DNA of 53,545 bases, taken from positions 1 through 53,545 of IMG/VR virus record IMGVR_UViG_3300001533_001828, one strand, 5' to 3'. This DNA comes from a virus. Positions 32,088 through 44,855 of the stretch are shown here, one piece after another. Within the stretch, counting starts at the first letter, position 1, and each line of letters begins with the position of its first letter. The notes beneath the pieces are model-generated. The model did not search any database and was not told the DNA's origin. It was given only the letters and a program-made list of their open reading frames with translations. The position numbers and the translations under genes are program-made.

Positions 32088-33140
32088 ATGTTTGGATCAT
32101 ATTCTTATCACGAGATAATTAGGAAAACTATTATATCTTTTGGTACGCTTTTTAATACAATCACCATTAAGCATAAAAAGCAAAATGGTGAGATTCATAG
32201 TGTTATGGAAGTTCCTATTGCATATGGTCCAGTAGAGAAGTTTTTAGCTAGATTAGAACAAAAACCAGATTTAAGAAATAGAGTTGCCATTGTTTTGCCA
32301 AGAATGTCATTTGAAATGACATCAATACAATATGATAGCTCAAGAAAAGTTTCAACAATGCAAACTTTTAACGCTGTAAATGTTTCTGGAGAAAAGTCTG
32401 CAAGAAAAGTTTTTATGCCTGTTCCATATAACATAGGATTTAGGCTTTCTATAATGGCTCAATATAATGAAGATGCGATTCAAATTGTTGAACAAATACT
32501 TCCATTTTTCCAACCATCTTTTAATTTAACTGTAGATTTGGTGGAATCAATTGGAGAAAAAAGAGACATACCAATGGTATTAAATAGTGTATCTTTTGAA
32601 GATAATTACGATTCTGGATACGAAGAAAAAAGAGTAGTAATTTATAATTTAGATTTTATAGCTAAAACTTATTTGTTTGGTCCTATTGATAATTCTACTA
32701 GTGGATTAATTAAGAAAGTACAAGTTGATTATTATACAAATACAAATACCAAAAATGCATCAAGACAATTAAGATATAAAGTAGAACCAAGGGCAATACA
32801 AGATTATAATAATGATGAGACTACATTTATAACATCAGATATTTCTACAGAAAAAACGCAGTTTGAAGTAAATGATACATCTACTTTAGTTTTGAATTCA
32901 TATATACAAATTAATGATGAGGTTATGTTTATAAAAGGTATTGAGGGAAATGTATTACTTGTAAATAGAGCACAAGAAGATTCATTAATAGATAATCACA
33001 TAAATGGTTCAAAAGTTAATGTTATAAATTCTACAGATGATGCTTTAGTGGAAGTTGGTGATGATTTTGGTTTTAGTGAATATCGTTATGACTTTGGTGA
33101 TGGAAAAATATATAGTCCAACTAAAGGTGTTGATGTATGA
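32088..33140 (+). CDS. 15: gp15, tail terminator and sheath stabiliser
   Basis: The start MFGSYSYHEIIRKTIISFGT and the segment VMEVPIAYGPVEKFLARLEQ (residues about 38-57), then RVAIVLPRMSFEMTSIQYDS, are characteristic of T4-type gp15. gp15 is a hexameric cap on the finished tail that joins the neck. T4 gp15 is 272 aa; the 350-aa product has an added C-terminal domain (about 255-325) with the pattern FEVNDTSTLV...INDEVMFI...RAQEDS...H, a module also seen in gp7 and the DUF4815 protein. Its stop overlaps gene 16 as ATGA. Confidence 0.92.
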   Translation: MFGSYSYHEIIRKTIISFGTLFNTITIKHKKQNGEIHSVMEVPIAYGPVEKFLARLEQKPDLRNRVAIVLPRMSFEMTSIQYDSSRKVSTMQTFNAVNVSGEKSARKVFMPVPYNIGFRLSIMAQYNEDAIQIVEQILPFFQPSFNLTVDLVESIGEKRDIPMVLNSVSFEDNYDSGYEEKRVVIYNLDFIAKTYLFGPIDNSTSGLIKKVQVDYYTNTNTKNASRQLRYKVEPRAIQDYNNDETTFITSDISTEKTQFEVNDTSTLVLNSYIQINDEVMFIKGIEGNVLLVNRAQEDSLIDNHINGSKVNVINSTDDALVEVGDDFGFSEYRYDFGDGKIYSPTKGVDV

Positions 33141-33577
33141 GTAAAGAATTTGAAAAAATAAATGAAACTTTAGATATTGAACCAACTTCAGTAGTGAAAG
33201 AAATTATTAAAGATACAAAAAAAGAAATTAAAAAAATTGAAAATTTAAAAAATAAAGAAGAACCGGAAATTGATTATGAATATGTTAGGGGAACACTTTA
33301 TAGTTTAATTGAAAAAGGTCAAGAGGCTGCATCTAGTTTATTGGAACTTGCACAAGATGGTCAGCAACCAAGAGCTTATGAAGTATTTGGACAATTAATA
33401 AAAAATGTTGCAGATTCTACTGATAAATTAATGGATATACACCAAAAAATGAAAGAATTAAAAAAAGAAGATTCAAATAATCCGAAAAGCGTCACAAATG
33501 CTCTTTTTGTTGGATCAACAGCAGAACTTCAAAAACTTTTAAAAAATGGACTCCCATCTTCAGATAATTCTAAATAG
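33137..33577 (+). CDS. 16: gp16, small terminase subunit
   Basis: The 146-aa length and position between 15 and 17 fit T4 gp16 (164 aa). The protein is largely helical, with a charged N-terminal helix (KEIIKDTKKEIKKIENLKNK) and a central core YVRGTLYSLIEKGQEAASSL, LELAQDGQQPRAYEVFGQLI. The conserved C-terminal segment is NALFVGSTAELQKLLKNG. gp16 rings recognise viral DNA and stimulate the gp17 motor. The start overlaps the gp15 stop. A small gene (33593) is interposed before gene 17, unlike in T4. Confidence 0.88.
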   Translation: MSKEFEKINETLDIEPTSVVKEIIKDTKKEIKKIENLKNKEEPEIDYEYVRGTLYSLIEKGQEAASSLLELAQDGQQPRAYEVFGQLIKNVADSTDKLMDIHQKMKELKKEDSNNPKSVTNALFVGSTAELQKLLKNGLPSSDNSK

Positions 33578-33592: not shown

Positions 33593-34462
33593 ATGAAAAC
33601 TTTTAAATCTTTTTTATCAGAAGCAAGAAAATCTAAAGATTATTCTCTTCGTGATTGGTTTTCTAAAAGTAAATCTTCGGATGGAACTCCTGGTTGGGTG
33701 CAACTAGGAGGAAAGTATGCAGGAAATCCTTGCGCTAAGCAACCAGGACAAACCACAAAGCCAAAATGTGGTAGTTCAAAAATGGCTTCAGAAATGAGTA
33801 AAGAAGAAGAAGATTCTGCAGCAAGAAGAAAAAGAAAAAAAGATCCAAACCCAGAAAGATCAGGAAAAGCAAAATTTGTAGCAACTGAAGAAAAGAAAGA
33901 TCATGAGTACTCTATGGCTCGTTCTGAATTGAAAATAATTGACAATGCAAGTAAGCGTCTAAAGAAAAAAATGGGTAAATCTGGTGAGGGTAATTTGAGA
34001 TCTTGGGTACAATCAAAAATAACTAAAGCAGCGGATTATATAGATACTGCTGCAGATTATGTAACCAATGAAGAAAAGGATGCTTGCTACCATAAAGTAA
34101 AATCTCGTTACAAAATTTGGCCAAGTGCTTATGCTTCCGGTGCTCTTGTTAAATGCCGTAAAGTTGGTGCTAAAAAATGGGGAAGTAAAACAAAAAATGA
34201 AGAATATTTAGAAGATAATTTAATTGAAAAATATTTAAGAATTCAAACTCGTGGAACTACATATACAATAATTTTGAATTGGAGAGGAAAAAATATAACA
34301 TCTCAGATGTTTTTTCAGAAATTTACTAGACCAACAAAAGAAGAAATAAGAAAAGAAATTAATAAAATTTATCCTGGATCTATAGTTTTATATTATTACC
34401 CATCAGCACAGGATCCAACTAAACCATTACTTTTTACTGGAGATGCTAACGGACTTAAATAA
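33593..34462 (+). CDS. DUF5872-like protein with capsid-targeting N-terminus, 289 aa
   Basis: The N-terminal ten residues, MKTFKSFLSE, closely match the capsid-targeting sequence of T4 internal proteins (MKTYQEFIAE in IPII/IPIII, from memory). They end in L-S-E before Ala, the consensus cut site of the gp21 prohead protease. Next comes DYSLRDWFSKSKSSDGTPGW, then QLGGKYAGNPCAKQPGQTTK and KPKCGSSKM (residues about 39-64), a Lys-rich linker, and YHKVKSRYKIWPSAYASGAL with VKCRKVGAKKWG (about 164-195), a DUF5872-type pattern with possible Cys-based metal sites. The basic protein may be packaged in the head and injected. An earlier role in head assembly is another possibility. Confidence 0.82.
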   Translation: MKTFKSFLSEARKSKDYSLRDWFSKSKSSDGTPGWVQLGGKYAGNPCAKQPGQTTKPKCGSSKMASEMSKEEEDSAARRKRKKDPNPERSGKAKFVATEEKKDHEYSMARSELKIIDNASKRLKKKMGKSGEGNLRSWVQSKITKAADYIDTAADYVTNEEKDACYHKVKSRYKIWPSAYASGALVKCRKVGAKKWGSKTKNEEYLEDNLIEKYLRIQTRGTTYTIILNWRGKNITSQMFFQKFTRPTKEEIRKEINKIYPGSIVLYYYPSAQDPTKPLLFTGDANGLK

Positions 34463-34494: not shown

Positions 34495-36144
34495 ATGAGT
34501 AGTGATCAGTATCTTGGGAACCCTTTGCTTAAAAAAGCAAATACTCCCATAGAATTTACAGAGGAACAAATAAAACAATTTATATTATGTAAGAATGATC
34601 CTGTATATTTTGCCAAAAATTATATAAAAATTGTTTCGCTTGATCATGGTTTAGTGCCATTTAAAATGTATAAGTTCCAAGAAAAACTTATCAATAATTT
34701 CCATGATCACAGATTCAACATTTGTAAAATGCCCCGACAGTCTGGTAAATCTACCACTGTCGTTGCTTATTTGCTACATTATGCGCTATTTAATGATAAT
34801 GTCAATATTGCGATTCTTGCTAATAAAGCATCTACTGCTAGAGACCTTCTTGGAAGACTTCAATTAGCTTATGAAAATTTACCAAAGTGGATGCAACAAG
34901 GTGTTTTAATATGGAATAAAGGGTCTTTAGAGTTGGAAAATGGATCAAGAATATTAGCAGCATCTACTTCAGCTTCTGCAGTTCGTGGTGGATCTTATAA
35001 TGTAATATTTCTTGATGAGTTTGCATTTGTACCAAATCATATTGCTGATGAATTTTTTAGCTCAGTTTATCCGACAATATCATCTGGTCAATCTACAAAA
35101 CTAATAATTGTTTCAACCCCACACGGGATGAATCATTTTTATAAAATTTGGCATGATGCAGAAAGAAAAAAGAATCAATATATTCCAACAGATGTTCATT
35201 GGTCTGAAGTTCCAGGAAGGAATGAAGAATGGAAAAAACAAACCATAGAAAATACAAGCGAACAACAATTTCAGGTAGAATTTGAATGTGAATTTCTTGG
35301 GTCTGTAGGAACTTTAATAAATCCATCAAAATTAAAATCTTTAGTGTATGATGAACCATTAAGAAAAAATGCTGGTTTGGATGTATATGAAAATCCAATA
35401 GATGATCATACTTACATTATGACTGTAGATGTTTCTAGAGGGACAAATAACGACTATTCTGCTTTTATTGTATTTGATATTTCATCATTTCCTTATAAAA
35501 TAGTAGCAAAATATAGAAACAATGAAATAAAACCAATGCTTTTTCCAAACATAATAATGGATGTTGCTAATGCATATCATAAAGCATTTGTTTTAGCAGA
35601 AGTAAATGATATAGGTGAACAAGTAACTAGTATTCTTCATTTTGATTTAGAATATGATAATATTTTAATGTGTGCTATGAGGGGAAGAGCTGGACAACTT
35701 GTTGGTCAAGGGTTTTCTGGTAAAAAAACCCAACTTGGAGTAAAAATGTCAAAGACTGTTAAAAAAATTGGATGTTCAAATTTAAAAACAATAATTGAAG
35801 ATGATAAGTTAATCTTCAATGATTATGAAATTATTAGTGAGCTTACTACTTTTATTCAAAAAAATCATTCATTTGAAGCAGAAGAGGGTTGTAATGACGA
35901 CCTTGTTATGTGTTTGGTCATATTTTCTTGGTTAATTGTTCAAGATTATTTCAAAGAAATGACCGATAATGATGTAAGAAAAAGAATATATGAGGACCAA
36001 AAAGAACAAATAGAACAAGATATGTCTCCATTTGGCTTTATCGTTGATGGAATGGATGAGGAAAGAACGTTTGTTGATATGGATGGAGACAGATGGTTTA
36101 CTGATGAATACGGAGATGTTTCTTACATGTGGGAATATAGATAA
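34495..36144 (+). CDS. 17: gp17, large terminase subunit (ATPase-nuclease)
   Basis: The motor that pumps and cuts DNA. Visible motifs are the Walker A PRQSGKST (residues 80-87), the Walker B VIFLDEFAF (about 170-178) and the nuclease acidic motif TVDVSRGTNNDYSAF (about 308-322). The late acidic CNDDLVM (about 465) probably closes the RNase-H-like active site. At 549 aa it is shorter than T4 gp17 (610 aa) but complete. The C-terminus is acidic and aromatic (DGDRWFTDEYGDVSYMWEYR). It follows the interposed DUF5872-like gene after 32 bases. Confidence 0.95.
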   Translation: MSSDQYLGNPLLKKANTPIEFTEEQIKQFILCKNDPVYFAKNYIKIVSLDHGLVPFKMYKFQEKLINNFHDHRFNICKMPRQSGKSTTVVAYLLHYALFNDNVNIAILANKASTARDLLGRLQLAYENLPKWMQQGVLIWNKGSLELENGSRILAASTSASAVRGGSYNVIFLDEFAFVPNHIADEFFSSVYPTISSGQSTKLIIVSTPHGMNHFYKIWHDAERKKNQYIPTDVHWSEVPGRNEEWKKQTIENTSEQQFQVEFECEFLGSVGTLINPSKLKSLVYDEPLRKNAGLDVYENPIDDHTYIMTVDVSRGTNNDYSAFIVFDISSFPYKIVAKYRNNEIKPMLFPNIIMDVANAYHKAFVLAEVNDIGEQVTSILHFDLEYDNILMCAMRGRAGQLVGQGFSGKKTQLGVKMSKTVKKIGCSNLKTIIEDDKLIFNDYEIISELTTFIQKNHSFEAEEGCNDDLVMCLVIFSWLIVQDYFKEMTDNDVRKRIYEDQKEQIEQDMSPFGFIVDGMDEERTFVDMDGDRWFTDEYGDVSYMWEYR

Positions 36145-41438: not shown

Positions 41439-42089
41439 ATGAAACTTATTACAGAAGAAATACAAAAAGTAGAATTTATCACTGAAGGAAAAGGTTCTGC
41501 AAAAAAGTTTTATATTGAGGGAACATTTCTACAGGGTGAAACTGTTAATAGAAATGGAAGAATGTATCCAGTTTTTATTTTGGAAAAAGAAGTCAATAGA
41601 TACAATGAATCATTCATTCAGAAAGGTCGTGCTCTTGGGGAATTAGGCCATCCTGATGGTCCTACAATAAACCTTGATCGAGTTTCTCATAAAATTCTTT
41701 CCCTTGTTCGTGAAGGAAATAATTTTAGAGGTAAAGCACAACTTCTTTCCACCCCAATGGGAAAAATTGCATCTTCACTTATTGGTGAAGGAGTAACTCT
41801 TGGAGTTTCCTCTCGTGGTGTTGGTTCTCTTCGTATGACCAATGAGGGACACAAAATTGTTGGTGAAGATTTTATGCTTGCAACTGCTGCAGATATTGTA
41901 GCAGATCCATCTGCTCCCGATGCCTTTGTTCAAGGGATTATGGAAGGTAAAGAGTGGGTTTTCGTAAATGGAGAACTTACTGAGCAATTAGTAGATAAAA
42001 CATATAAAAGAATAAATACATTAGTTGATCAAAAAATGCTCGAAGAGCATAAACTAAATCTTTTTCAAAATTTTCTTTCAAATCTCTAA
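41439..42089 (+). CDS. 21: gp21, prohead core scaffold protease
   Basis: The start is at ATG 41439 (MKLITEEIQKVEFI), five bases after the upstream stop; a longer frame from 41385 reads through the previous gene. The 216-aa length matches T4 gp21 (212 aa). Conserved motifs are EGTFLQGETVNRNGRMYP (about residues 27-44), GRALGELGHPDGP with catalytic His71, and GVTLGVSSRGVGSLR with the nucleophile Ser124 or Ser125. The protease cuts after (L/I)-x-E in scaffold and capsid proteins. Probable substrates in this window are gp22, gp23 (after FLSE, residue 54), gp67 and the DUF5872-like protein (after FLSE, residue 10). Confidence 0.94.
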   Translation: MKLITEEIQKVEFITEGKGSAKKFYIEGTFLQGETVNRNGRMYPVFILEKEVNRYNESFIQKGRALGELGHPDGPTINLDRVSHKILSLVREGNNFRGKAQLLSTPMGKIASSLIGEGVTLGVSSRGVGSLRMTNEGHKIVGEDFMLATAADIVADPSAPDAFVQGIMEGKEWVFVNGELTEQLVDKTYKRINTLVDQKMLEEHKLNLFQNFLSNL

Positions 42090-42135: not shown

Positions 42136-43410
42136 ATGTCCCGTGGTAAAAATTTACAAGAAATGGAAGTAGGCACTACACAATCTAAAACTGCAGTAAA
42201 TGCTAATGCATCTGCAGCAGATCCAATGCAAACTGGAAATGCCTCTGGTGTTTTAACTCCAGGTCAAACTGGTAGTTGGGAAGACTTGGGCGGACCTACT
42301 CCCGAAAATTATCGTTCTGATGATGATTCTGCAAAATTAAAGGAACCATCTGCAACACTTAAGCAAGTTAAAGATGTTGTAAATAAAAATGCATCTGCTG
42401 CAGATGCAATGAAAAAAATGAAAGAAGAAATTGAAGATGAAGAAGGGGAAGAAGTAAATGAAGAGGATGAGTTTAGATCTGCCTTAGAAAAGCAAAGAGC
42501 AAAAAGAAAAGCAGAAAAAGATAGTCAGAAAAAATCTATTAAAGATAGAATGTCTGCTGCAGCAGAAAGAAACAAATTAGGAGAAGAAGCAGAAGAAGAA
42601 TATGATGAAGAATATGATGAAGAATATGATGAAGAAGATGAAGTAGAAGGTGAAGATGAATTTGTAGAAGAAGAAAATAATTTAAATTTAAATATCGAAG
42701 AAGATGTAAATGCTCTTCTTGAAGGTGAAGATCTTTCTGAAGAGTTTAAAGAAAAGGCAAAATTAATTTTTGAAACTGCAATTAATGCAAAAATTGAAGA
42801 AATTCACGAATCTCTAGAAAAACATTATGAGCAACAACTTCTAGAAGAAGTTGAAGCAATGAAAGAACAACTTGTTGAAAGAGTTGATTCTTACTTAGAA
42901 TATGTTTCTGAAGAATGGTTAAATGAAAATGCTCTAGTTGTAGAGCAAGGTCTTAAGTCTGAAATGACTGAATCCTTCCTCTCAGGAATGAAGGATCTTT
43001 TTGAAGCACATTATGTATCAATCCCTGAAGATAAATATGATGTACTTGAAAGTATGGTAGAAAAACTTGATGATATGGAGACTAAACTCAACGAGCAAAT
43101 TGATAAAAATATTGCTCTAAATAGAAGATTAGCAGAATCAGTTTCTGATGTAATTTTTTCAGAAGTAACTGAAGGTTTAGCACTTTCACAGAAAGATAAA
43201 CTTGCTTCTCTTGTTGAAAATGTTGAGTTTGATGGTGAAGAAGACTATCGTGAGAAGCTAGTAACCCTGAGGGAATCTTATTTCCCCAAAAATACTAAAT
43301 CTCCAAGAGATTTTTCTGAGACTCCTCTTGAAGGACAAAATATCCAGGAAGAAGTTTCTGGAGTAATGAGTACTTATCTTCAAAGTCTAAGAAGAGTTTC
43401 TAATAAGTGA
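42136..43410 (+). CDS. 22: gp22, prohead scaffolding core protein
   Basis: At 424 aa this is longer than T4 gp22 (269 aa). The N-terminal third is disordered and rich in Ala, Asn and Pro. A run of EEYDEEYDEEYDEE-type residues (about 154-170) is encoded by a 12-bp tandem repeat near 42598-42640. The rest is highly helical and acidic with long coiled-coil segments (HYEQQLLEEVEAMKEQLVER, EWLNENALVVEQGLKSEMTE) typical of the scaffold core. The conserved C-terminal region includes SLVENVEFDGEEDYREKLVT, LRESYFPK and SGVMSTYLQSLRRVSNK. The protein shapes the prohead and is then degraded by gp21. Confidence 0.92.
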   Translation: MSRGKNLQEMEVGTTQSKTAVNANASAADPMQTGNASGVLTPGQTGSWEDLGGPTPENYRSDDDSAKLKEPSATLKQVKDVVNKNASAADAMKKMKEEIEDEEGEEVNEEDEFRSALEKQRAKRKAEKDSQKKSIKDRMSAAAERNKLGEEAEEEYDEEYDEEYDEEDEVEGEDEFVEEENNLNLNIEEDVNALLEGEDLSEEFKEKAKLIFETAINAKIEEIHESLEKHYEQQLLEEVEAMKEQLVERVDSYLEYVSEEWLNENALVVEQGLKSEMTESFLSGMKDLFEAHYVSIPEDKYDVLESMVEKLDDMETKLNEQIDKNIALNRRLAESVSDVIFSEVTEGLALSQKDKLASLVENVEFDGEEDYREKLVTLRESYFPKNTKSPRDFSETPLEGQNIQEEVSGVMSTYLQSLRRVSNK

Positions 43411-43457: not shown

Positions 43458-44855
43458 ATGCAAATGTTCAATGCAGAGCATCTGCAGGAAAAGTGGGCAC
43501 CACTTCTAGACTACGAGGGTCTTGATAACATTAAAGATTCCCATCGTAGAATGGTGACTGCTGTCCTGCTAGAAAATCAAGAAAAGTTTTTAAGAGAAGA
43601 AAGTCAGTTTCTTTCTGAAACACCAACCAACGCTGCTAACGCTTCTGGTGCTTCTGGCGGTTTCAGTGGTTCTGCAACTCCTACTGGTCCAGTTGCTGGT
43701 TTTGATCCCGTTCTAATTTCCCTAATTAGACGTTCAATGCCCAACTTGGTTGCATATGACCTTGCTGGTGTTCAACCAATGAATGGTCCTACTGGACTTA
43801 TCTTCGCAATGCGCTCTCGCTACACCAATCAGAGTGGAACTGAAGCACTATTCGACGAAGCAGATAGTGCATTCTCTGGACAAGACTCTGGACGCGATGA
43901 AACTGCAGGATTTACCGATACCGCTGCTGGTATGGGTACAGCTTCACAGTCTGGAAGTAATCCTGGTCTTCTCAATCCTGTTGGTACTGCATCCTCTACC
44001 GGATATAATGTCGGTCAGGGTATGGTTACTGGAGATGCCGAGAATCTCGGATCTGGTGCAGGTGATCAATTCAACGAGATGGCTTTCTCAATTGAGAAAG
44101 TTACTGTAACTGCAAAGTCTAGAGCACTCAAAGCAGAATACAGTTTAGAACTTGCACAGGACCTTAAGGCAATTCACGGTCTAAATGCTGAAGCTGAACT
44201 CGCAAACATTCTCTCTACAGAGATTCTTGCTGAGATCAACCGTGAAGTTATTAGAACCATCTATAAGGTCGCTGAGCAAGGTGCTACTGCTAACACTGCA
44301 ACTTCTGGTATCTTTGACCTTGATATTGATTCTAATGGTCGTTGGTCTGTTGAGAAGTTCAAAGGTCTTCTTTTCCAAATCGAGCGTGATGCTAACGCAA
44401 TCGCACAAAGAACTCGTAGAGGGAAGGGCAATATGATCCTTTGCTCCGCTGATGTTGCTTCTGCACTCACAATGGCTGGAGTTTTGGATTATACCCCTGC
44501 ACTTAATGCTAACCTTAACGTTGATGATACTGGAAATACCTTTGCTGGTGTTCTCCAAGGTAAGTATCGTGTTTATATCGATCCTTATTCTGCTAACGTA
44601 TCTGCTAACCAGTATTACGTTGTTGGTTATAAAGGTTCTTCACCTTATGACGCAGGTATCTTCTACTGCCCCTATGTTCCTCTCCAAATGGTTCGTGCCG
44701 TTGGTGAGAACACCTTCCAGCCAAAAATTGGATTCAAGACTCGCTACGGAATGGTAGCTAATCCATTTGCTGAAGGTACTGATCAAGGTTCTGGCGGTCT
44801 TCGCATCAATGCAAACCGTTATTACAGAAGAGTTCGTGTTAATAACCTAATGTGA
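43458..44855 (+). CDS. 23: gp23, major capsid protein
   Basis: The 465-aa product has the order of T4-type gp23: an N-terminal propeptide with LLENQEKFLREESQFLSE, the probable gp21 cleavage after Glu54 (FLSE, then TPTNAANA), and mature-domain segments PVLISLIRRSMPNLVAYDLA, GVQPMNGPTGLIFAMRSRY, EMAFSIEKVTVTAKSRALKA and EYSLELAQDLKAIHGLNAEA. Near the C-terminus are PYDAGIFYCPYVPLQMVRAV and FKTRYGMVANPFA. T4 gp23 is 521 aa. The gene uses more C-ending codons than its neighbours, as often seen for very highly expressed genes. It is closed by a strong terminator. Confidence 0.97.
   Translation: MQMFNAEHLQEKWAPLLDYEGLDNIKDSHRRMVTAVLLENQEKFLREESQFLSETPTNAANASGASGGFSGSATPTGPVAGFDPVLISLIRRSMPNLVAYDLAGVQPMNGPTGLIFAMRSRYTNQSGTEALFDEADSAFSGQDSGRDETAGFTDTAAGMGTASQSGSNPGLLNPVGTASSTGYNVGQGMVTGDAENLGSGAGDQFNEMAFSIEKVTVTAKSRALKAEYSLELAQDLKAIHGLNAEAELANILSTEILAEINREVIRTIYKVAEQGATANTATSGIFDLDIDSNGRWSVEKFKGLLFQIERDANAIAQRTRRGKGNMILCSADVASALTMAGVLDYTPALNANLNVDDTGNTFAGVLQGKYRVYIDPYSANVSANQYYVVGYKGSSPYDAGIFYCPYVPLQMVRAVGENTFQPKIGFKTRYGMVANPFAEGTDQGSGGLRINANRYYRRVRVNNLM

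Follow-up and report, generated by a model that had tools for sequence, protein, structure and literature searches.

A gene lying between the two terminase genes of a T4-like cyanophage encodes a protein that probably enters the virus head by means of a ten-residue address tag and is then trimmed by the phage protease. We give a probability of roughly 0.68 to the whole account, by which the gene product is a precursor of internal head cargo: the leader would dock in the prohead, gp21 would cut, and the body would be ejected. For this protein, packaging and leader cutting are well-supported predictions, and cutting between modules is a possibility that we infer from relatives. Sequence or published data provide the leader, the pattern of cut sites, the protease and the detection of relatives in virions; from these we infer targeting, cleavage and ejection.

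The gene, its locus and its family

The source virus record of 53,545 bases, analyzed here at its full length as the window, is a fragment of a T4-like cyanophage that also encodes gp21, gp22 and gp23. At the DNA level, its closest isolates are Synechococcus phages, with about 75% identity across part of the region. An open reading frame on the plus strand (33593-34462, ATG start) encodes 289 amino acids, the protein beginning MKTFKSFLSEARKSKDYSLRDWF. As an earlier sequence-only reading of this DNA had stated, the gene sits between genes 16 and 17: gp16 ends at 33577 and gp17 starts at 34495. Most relatives occupy the same locus; the family gene lies between gp15 and gp16 in P-SSM2, and S-CREM2 gp160 is encoded far away from it. 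The features used below are as follows, with a slash marking a predicted cut here and throughout.

33137..33577, +: gp16, terminase small subunit, upstream neighbour (DNA_Packaging, E 2e-7)
33593..34462, +: putative precursor of internal head cargo, 289 aa, member of PHROG_727 / T4-GC119 (ORF and profile match)
33593..33622, +: CTS-like leader MKTFKSFLSE, residues 1-10, predicted gp21 cut after Glu10, before Ala11 (comparison with the T4 capsid-targeting sequence, CTS)
33623..33886, +: module 1, residues 11-98, ARKSKDYSLRDWF...PCAKQPGQTTKPKC..., two invariant Cys (alignment, junction alignment)
33887..34072, +: module 2, residues 99-160, KDHEYSMARSEL..., predicted helical (alignment, model)
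34073..34207, +: module 3, residues 161-205, EKDACYHKVKSRYKIWPSAYASGALVKCRKVGAKKWG, two invariant Cys (alignment)
34220..34228, +: second strict [LIVMF]xE site, LIE212/K, in the linker before module 4 (sequence)
34229..34459, +: module 4, residues 213-289, beta-beta-alpha-beta (model)
34495..36144, +: gp17, terminase large subunit, downstream neighbour (Terminase_6)
41439..42089, +: gp21 prohead protease (Peptidase_S77, E 1e-35; equivalents of the T4 catalytic residues His85 and Ser140 conserved)
42136..43410, +: gp22 scaffold, with the top [LIVMF]xE excess of all larger genes in the window (z 4.9)
43608..43619, +: gp23 FLSE/T site, residues 51-54, counterpart of T4 gp23 FLTE/A (sequence)

The scaffold protein gp22 is a known substrate of gp21, and its [LIVMF]xE excess is as expected of one. 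The FLSE site was said to be common to the window's gp23; the motif is indeed present there, followed by Thr and not Ala. The T4 counterpart, FLTE, is a gp21 cut site.

The body of the protein matches PHROG_727 (profile match, residues 8-222, E 1.4e-74), which corresponds to T4-GC119 in isolates and has members in 378 phage records, almost all from cyanophages; the two Cys modules are almost restricted to cyanophages. Relatives are modular and reach up to 831 amino acids, being built from small interchangeable modules that include DUF6321, DUF3008 and DUF5661, and module content varies strongly between phages. Where longer relatives carry DUF6321, it is their final module (E 3e-22); its Pfam profile did not match the window protein. 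The earlier description of a basic protein with two Cys-bearing domains agrees with a mature part of pI 9.8 and net charge +26 that carries four Cys in two modules. Its designation as DUF5872-like is unsupported, because the protein has no Pfam-A family at E<=1. DUF5872 was called neither here nor in 15 aligned members, using a Pfam copy that may or may not include this model, and the sole paper naming it in our literature search concerns an algal virus.

A leader shared with virion proteins

The internal proteins of T4 are a classic subject. Compared with the start of IPIII and IPII (MKTYQEFIAEA, translated from AF158101), the first 11 residues of the window protein are identical at M1, K2, T3, F7, E10 and A11, the differences including Y/F at position 4 and I/L at position 8. 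Residues 4 and 7 of the T4 CTS matter for targeting, and residues 8 and 10 for processing (PMC9026906). The proposed ten-residue likeness to the CTS thus extends to the aromatics at 4 and 7, Leu8, Glu10 and the small residue that follows, and FLSE stands immediately before Ala11, placing the end of the leader at a gp21-type cut site as originally described.

The regular expression M..[FYWL]..[FYWL][LIVMF].E matches one start in the window, that of this ORF, against 0.02 expected by composition (4.9e-4 matches per start times about 45 genes). When four phage sequences were pooled, the motif occurred at 7 of 542 predicted starts versus 2 of 2854 internal Met (p 7e-5); the annotated starts matching in the first 150 kb of T4 are those of IPII, IPIII and the 54-residue gp61.1. 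Across IMG/VR, a DNA pattern encoding F4-F7-L8-E10-A11 gave at least 120 matches, at least 118 of them in open frames and at least 115 without an upstream in-frame ATG, compared with 37 matches in the entire collection for a control with the second Phe moved one residue (14 open, 8 plausible starts). On the expectation in the window and this shifted control, we rejected a chance origin of the leader. Among the IMG/VR matches listed, the leader-bearing genes are varied, mostly of cytidylyltransferase type with several unrelated families besides. A literature search, with subscription journals mostly outside it, found no paper on a capsid-targeting leader in cyanophages. T4 gp61.1 (L092 18966-19130, 54 aa) has a CTS-like start, MKTFKEFIKE/DMVAGDSGGNPENISIGTTSGAVVNK, and resembles a segment of T4 gp23 past that protein's own cut.

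Looking for the same leader on other genes, as had been proposed, recovered it in S-CREM2, S-SM1 and S-SCSM1. The virion proteome of S-CREM2 comprises 52 detected proteins out of 219 (PMC10665884), among them five of the six with motif starts:

gp6, SAM hydrolase: MKDFDSFLEE, virion-detected
gp13: MKDLHSFLTE, virion-detected
gp14, APH-like kinase: MKRFDAFLTE, GTG start, virion-detected
gp136: MQTFSMFFSE, virion-detected
gp154, cytidylyltransferase: MKNFSSFLTE, virion-detected
gp175, 55 aa: motif start, absent from the virion list

Counted on annotated starts, the motif is present in 5/52 detected proteins versus 1/167 others (Fisher p 0.003). The SAM hydrolase and the APH-like kinase (L085 3837-5081 and 10579-12846) thus combine leader and virion detection, and a packaged SAM hydrolase could counter restriction on entry. 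In the part of S-SM1 that was scanned, the virion-relevant motif start is that of the GC190 cytidylyltransferase (MKKFSAFLNE), a protein that Sullivan et al. found in virions (PMC3037559). S-SCSM1 has motif starts on ORF91, an NMNAT (MKSFLQFLKE) detected in virions (PMC9602691), and on ORF30, which has no virion label; 48 proteins are labelled 'virion' by count in this record versus 45 by mass spectrometry in the paper. In marine T4-like phages, the leader seems to work as a label for head-packaged proteins, and since it is also carried by head-packaged proteins of related viruses, cargo may be predictable from sequence.

Other proteins show variants of this arrangement. S-CREM2 gp12 (L085 7704-10313), virion-listed and annotated as Cas9/Csn1, has an offset leader, LRFASFMAE/A, followed by AERLGLVSDGHGSYMDPNTNK; its N-terminus looks closer to how members of the leader-bearing cytidylyltransferase/kinase family begin than to Cas9. 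Module-4 relatives follow a CTS leader in stand-alone proteins of L214, S-SCSM1 (ORF30) and DSL-LC03. Stand-alone leader proteins in L123, L148, L155 and L181 start MKTFSQFLLEATDPKGPIKKYMSPEEIAKKHK or near it, a DUF5661-type start, and these loci also encode a module-4 unit, a start-and-end plan as in the window protein.

Cut-site linkers and packaged relatives

As far as sequence comparison can tell, the leader is one case of a putative cut-site linker that divides small modules across the family, a wider pattern that the earlier reading had not noticed. We analyzed 92 non-redundant linkers, each a 12-residue stretch preceding a module, for the gp21-type site [LIVMF]xE (HxE), with expectations obtained by shuffling each linker. 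HxE occurred in 78/92 linkers compared with 32.1 expected, a 2.4-fold excess, and after strict redundancy removal in 37/45 compared with 16.6; its density per position was 0.095 in linkers versus 0.005 in modules. The controls HE (25 vs 34.8), HxD (9 vs 9.4) and ExxH were at chance, whereas HxxE (44 vs 29.5) and ExH (42 vs 32.2) were raised, though far less than HxE; part of the linker pattern may therefore reflect short amphipathic segments. In T4, gp21 cuts at sites of the [L/I]xE type, among them ITE and LTE in Alt.

The junction before module 1 recurs in different surroundings. It reads FLSE/ARKSKDYSL in the window and FLYE/ANKSGDSSL in L007, and lies inside longer proteins as GILE/ANKSGDSSL (P-RSM1), AVLE/GNKSGDSSL (S-SM1), GMSE/GTKSGDSSL (S-P4), EIQE/ASKSGDDSL (L010) and KLSE/ARDGKSAKDKGYSL (S-CREM2 gp160). 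In the junction alignment, the cut junction is kept while the upstream part is swapped. P-SSM2_123 starts M-ANKSGDSSLHDWF (M/ANKSGDSSL), at the predicted mature end, and many IMG/VR members also begin exactly at a junction. Linker sites and recurring junction together suggest that the family consists of head polyproteins cut up by gp21; this string-of-modules organization with cut-site linkers is new here. Some linkers (L039, L002-L081) contain internal leader-like motifs, such as KTFGQFVE/DWQKVNK and FSDWRxELxE/, which suggest that leader-plus-module genes may have been fused end to end.

It is possible, if on the unlikely side, that the protein is packaged and trimmed only, the leader being removed, the body persisting as one chain and the E-rich linkers serving as flexible spacers. 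This is a narrower form of our explanation and compatible with its first half. The window protein itself lends it some weight: LIE212 is its only further strict HxE site, and the linkers before module 2 (VATEE) and module 3 (VTNEE), E-rich as they are, have no strict motif and fall outside the T4 rule. Flexible spacers alone, however, fit poorly with a family-wide HxE excess at exact gp21 spacing while HE and HxD are unenriched, or with members in P-SSM2 and IMG/VR that begin right at a junction.

Several family members have been found in virions. S-CREM2 gp160 was listed among the virion proteins on 7 peptides and has both Cys modules, preceded by the junction KLSE/ARDGKSAKDKGYSLHDWF; gp137, with end modules in common, is listed on 4 peptides at 4.1% coverage only. 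In S-SCSM1, ORF29 is a family member with a virion protein label, and the virion-labelled ORFs 89, 92 and 93 have other family modules. Proteins with family modules are enriched in virions in S-CREM2 (3/3, p 0.013; p 0.056 with the two strong matches only) and S-SCSM1 (5/6, p 6e-4; 4/5, p 0.003, without a low-complexity match), the virions being CsCl preparations in which co-purification is possible. The Gly/Asn-rich match in S-SCSM1 ORF226 was discounted as homology. With relatives sharing its modules in virions and its leader marking virion proteins of S-CREM2 and S-SM1, the packaging half of the proposal that this is an internal head protein has gained support as a prediction. S-CREM2 gp137 and gp160 and S-SCSM1 ORF29 are packaged without an N-terminal leader; the leader is therefore not required for packaging within the family, which rules it out as the sole targeting signal.

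Two further observations concern these virion proteins. S-CREM2 gp160 (L084 33343-34236) contains GATGFTGAAAPEGPVAGYDPLM, compared with GADGFTGAAAPGGPVAGYDPLL in gp23 (PHROG major head protein, E 5e-10), and is one of several cargo-like proteins with a copy of the mature gp23 N-arm, together with S-SCSM1 ORF97 (L252 13121-13306), L137 from 339 and L205; these copies are possibly a second route of binding the capsid interior. S-SCSM1 ORF93 (L252 11626-11835, 70 aa, virion-labelled) has a C-terminal leader-like RTFKEFLEYIE on a DUF3008-like body that also occurs as a module inside a long family protein of L012.

Somewhat more doubtful is a core or scaffold helper like T4 gp67, gp68 or gp22, whose fragments would act in assembly only and never be injected as effectors. 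The gene adjoins head and packaging genes, the family is rich in cut sites, and fragments of T4 gp22 and gp67 do remain in heads; yet module content is strongly variable among phages, and the leader is also found on a SAM hydrolase and a cytidylyltransferase, enzymes more plausibly explained as delivered cargo. That the product is no virion protein at all, but a DNA-packaging accessory made with gp16 and gp17 whose CTS-like start arose by chance, is very improbable: its location between these genes in most relatives is offset by the shifts of locus in P-SSM2 and S-CREM2, by the low motif expectation in the window and by the virion detection of relatives. An external or neck protein is hardly to be expected either, despite the entry 'structural protein' in the S-P4 and S-B68 records (S-P4 note: 'structural protein, T4 GC0119'), since a CTS leader and gp21-type sites are sensible only within the prohead and the structural matches, from a poor model, included no fold of a fibre or decoration protein.

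For the internal-cargo reading, we propose the following course. Like the T4 CTS, the leader would attach to the prohead core, and the precursor would be enclosed as the gp23 shell forms. Cutting by gp21 after Glu10 would leave the basic, Cys-bearing body alongside the DNA inside the head. Across the family, the [LIVMF]xE linkers are probably gp21 targets as well, which would yield separate modules of about 30-90 aa; in the window protein, a cut at LIE212, the one strict internal site, would release the C-terminal module 4 from a piece made of the other three. The body most likely exits with the DNA at infection.

Module 4, implications and known systems

The model of the whole protein has a mean pLDDT of 53.9, and the C-terminal module alone is therefore usable. 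Module 4 is modelled with confidence (core pLDDT about 90) as a beta-beta-alpha-beta unit, and its top structural match is T7 Gp2 (4lk0_M, Z 5.1, rmsd 2.1, 50/51 aligned; also 4llg and 2wnm), with RNA polymerase epsilon (YkzG, 4njc) at Z 4.6 and ribosomal proteins and phi29 p6 closely trailing. Gp2 and epsilon both bind RNA polymerase and have been described as related in structure. As matches within 1 Z are tied, the likeness is a lead rather than a result: module 4 weakly resembles Gp2 in the model, sharing a similar beta-beta-alpha-beta arrangement over 50 residues with Gp2 and epsilon, with no sequence similarity found and at Z values where a common arrangement suffices. A sequence search of solved structures gave no credible match. 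In the whole-protein model, residues 95-162 also matched Mical bMERB and other helical proteins at Z values of up to 7.2, which look like generic long-helix matches. It is a speculative and improbable extension that cyanophage heads carry gp21-processed polyproteins whose shuffled small, mostly Cys-bearing modules, each preceded by a cut site, are freed one by one in the capsid and injected, with module 4, by its Gp2/epsilon-like fold, reaching host RNA polymerase at time zero as a cyanophage counterpart of T4 Alt.

If the internal-cargo reading is right, a ten-residue rule tells which proteins travel in the heads of common marine T4-like phages, and covers the SAM hydrolase, APH-like kinase and cytidylyltransferase/NMNAT proteins that are repeatedly found in virions and unexplained. 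It would also offer a means of loading proteins into cyanophage heads, and modular, protease-released head cargo, carried toward marine photosynthetic microbes, becomes a testable idea.

With T4-GC119 / PHROG_727 proteins (S-SM1 SSM1_115, S-SCSM1 ORF29, S-CREM2 gp160), the window protein shares sequence family, modules and usually locus, but it is short and leader-first, whereas most others are longer, start with other modules and in many cases end in DUF6321. T4 IPII and IPIII (and IPI and Alt) likewise have a ten-residue CTS with aromatics at 4 and 7, a hydrophobic residue at 8, Glu10 and Ala11, a basic body, and a gp21 encoded by the same phage. Unlike theirs, the body here is multi-module with paired Cys and was matched to none of them in our searches, and its relatives have cut-site-like linkers and may be leaderless. 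For T4 gp67, gp68 and gp22, several gp21 cuts inside the prohead leave internal peptides, as we propose here; those proteins are scaffold or core, whereas the predicted pieces of this family are conserved, mostly Cys-bearing, basic modules.
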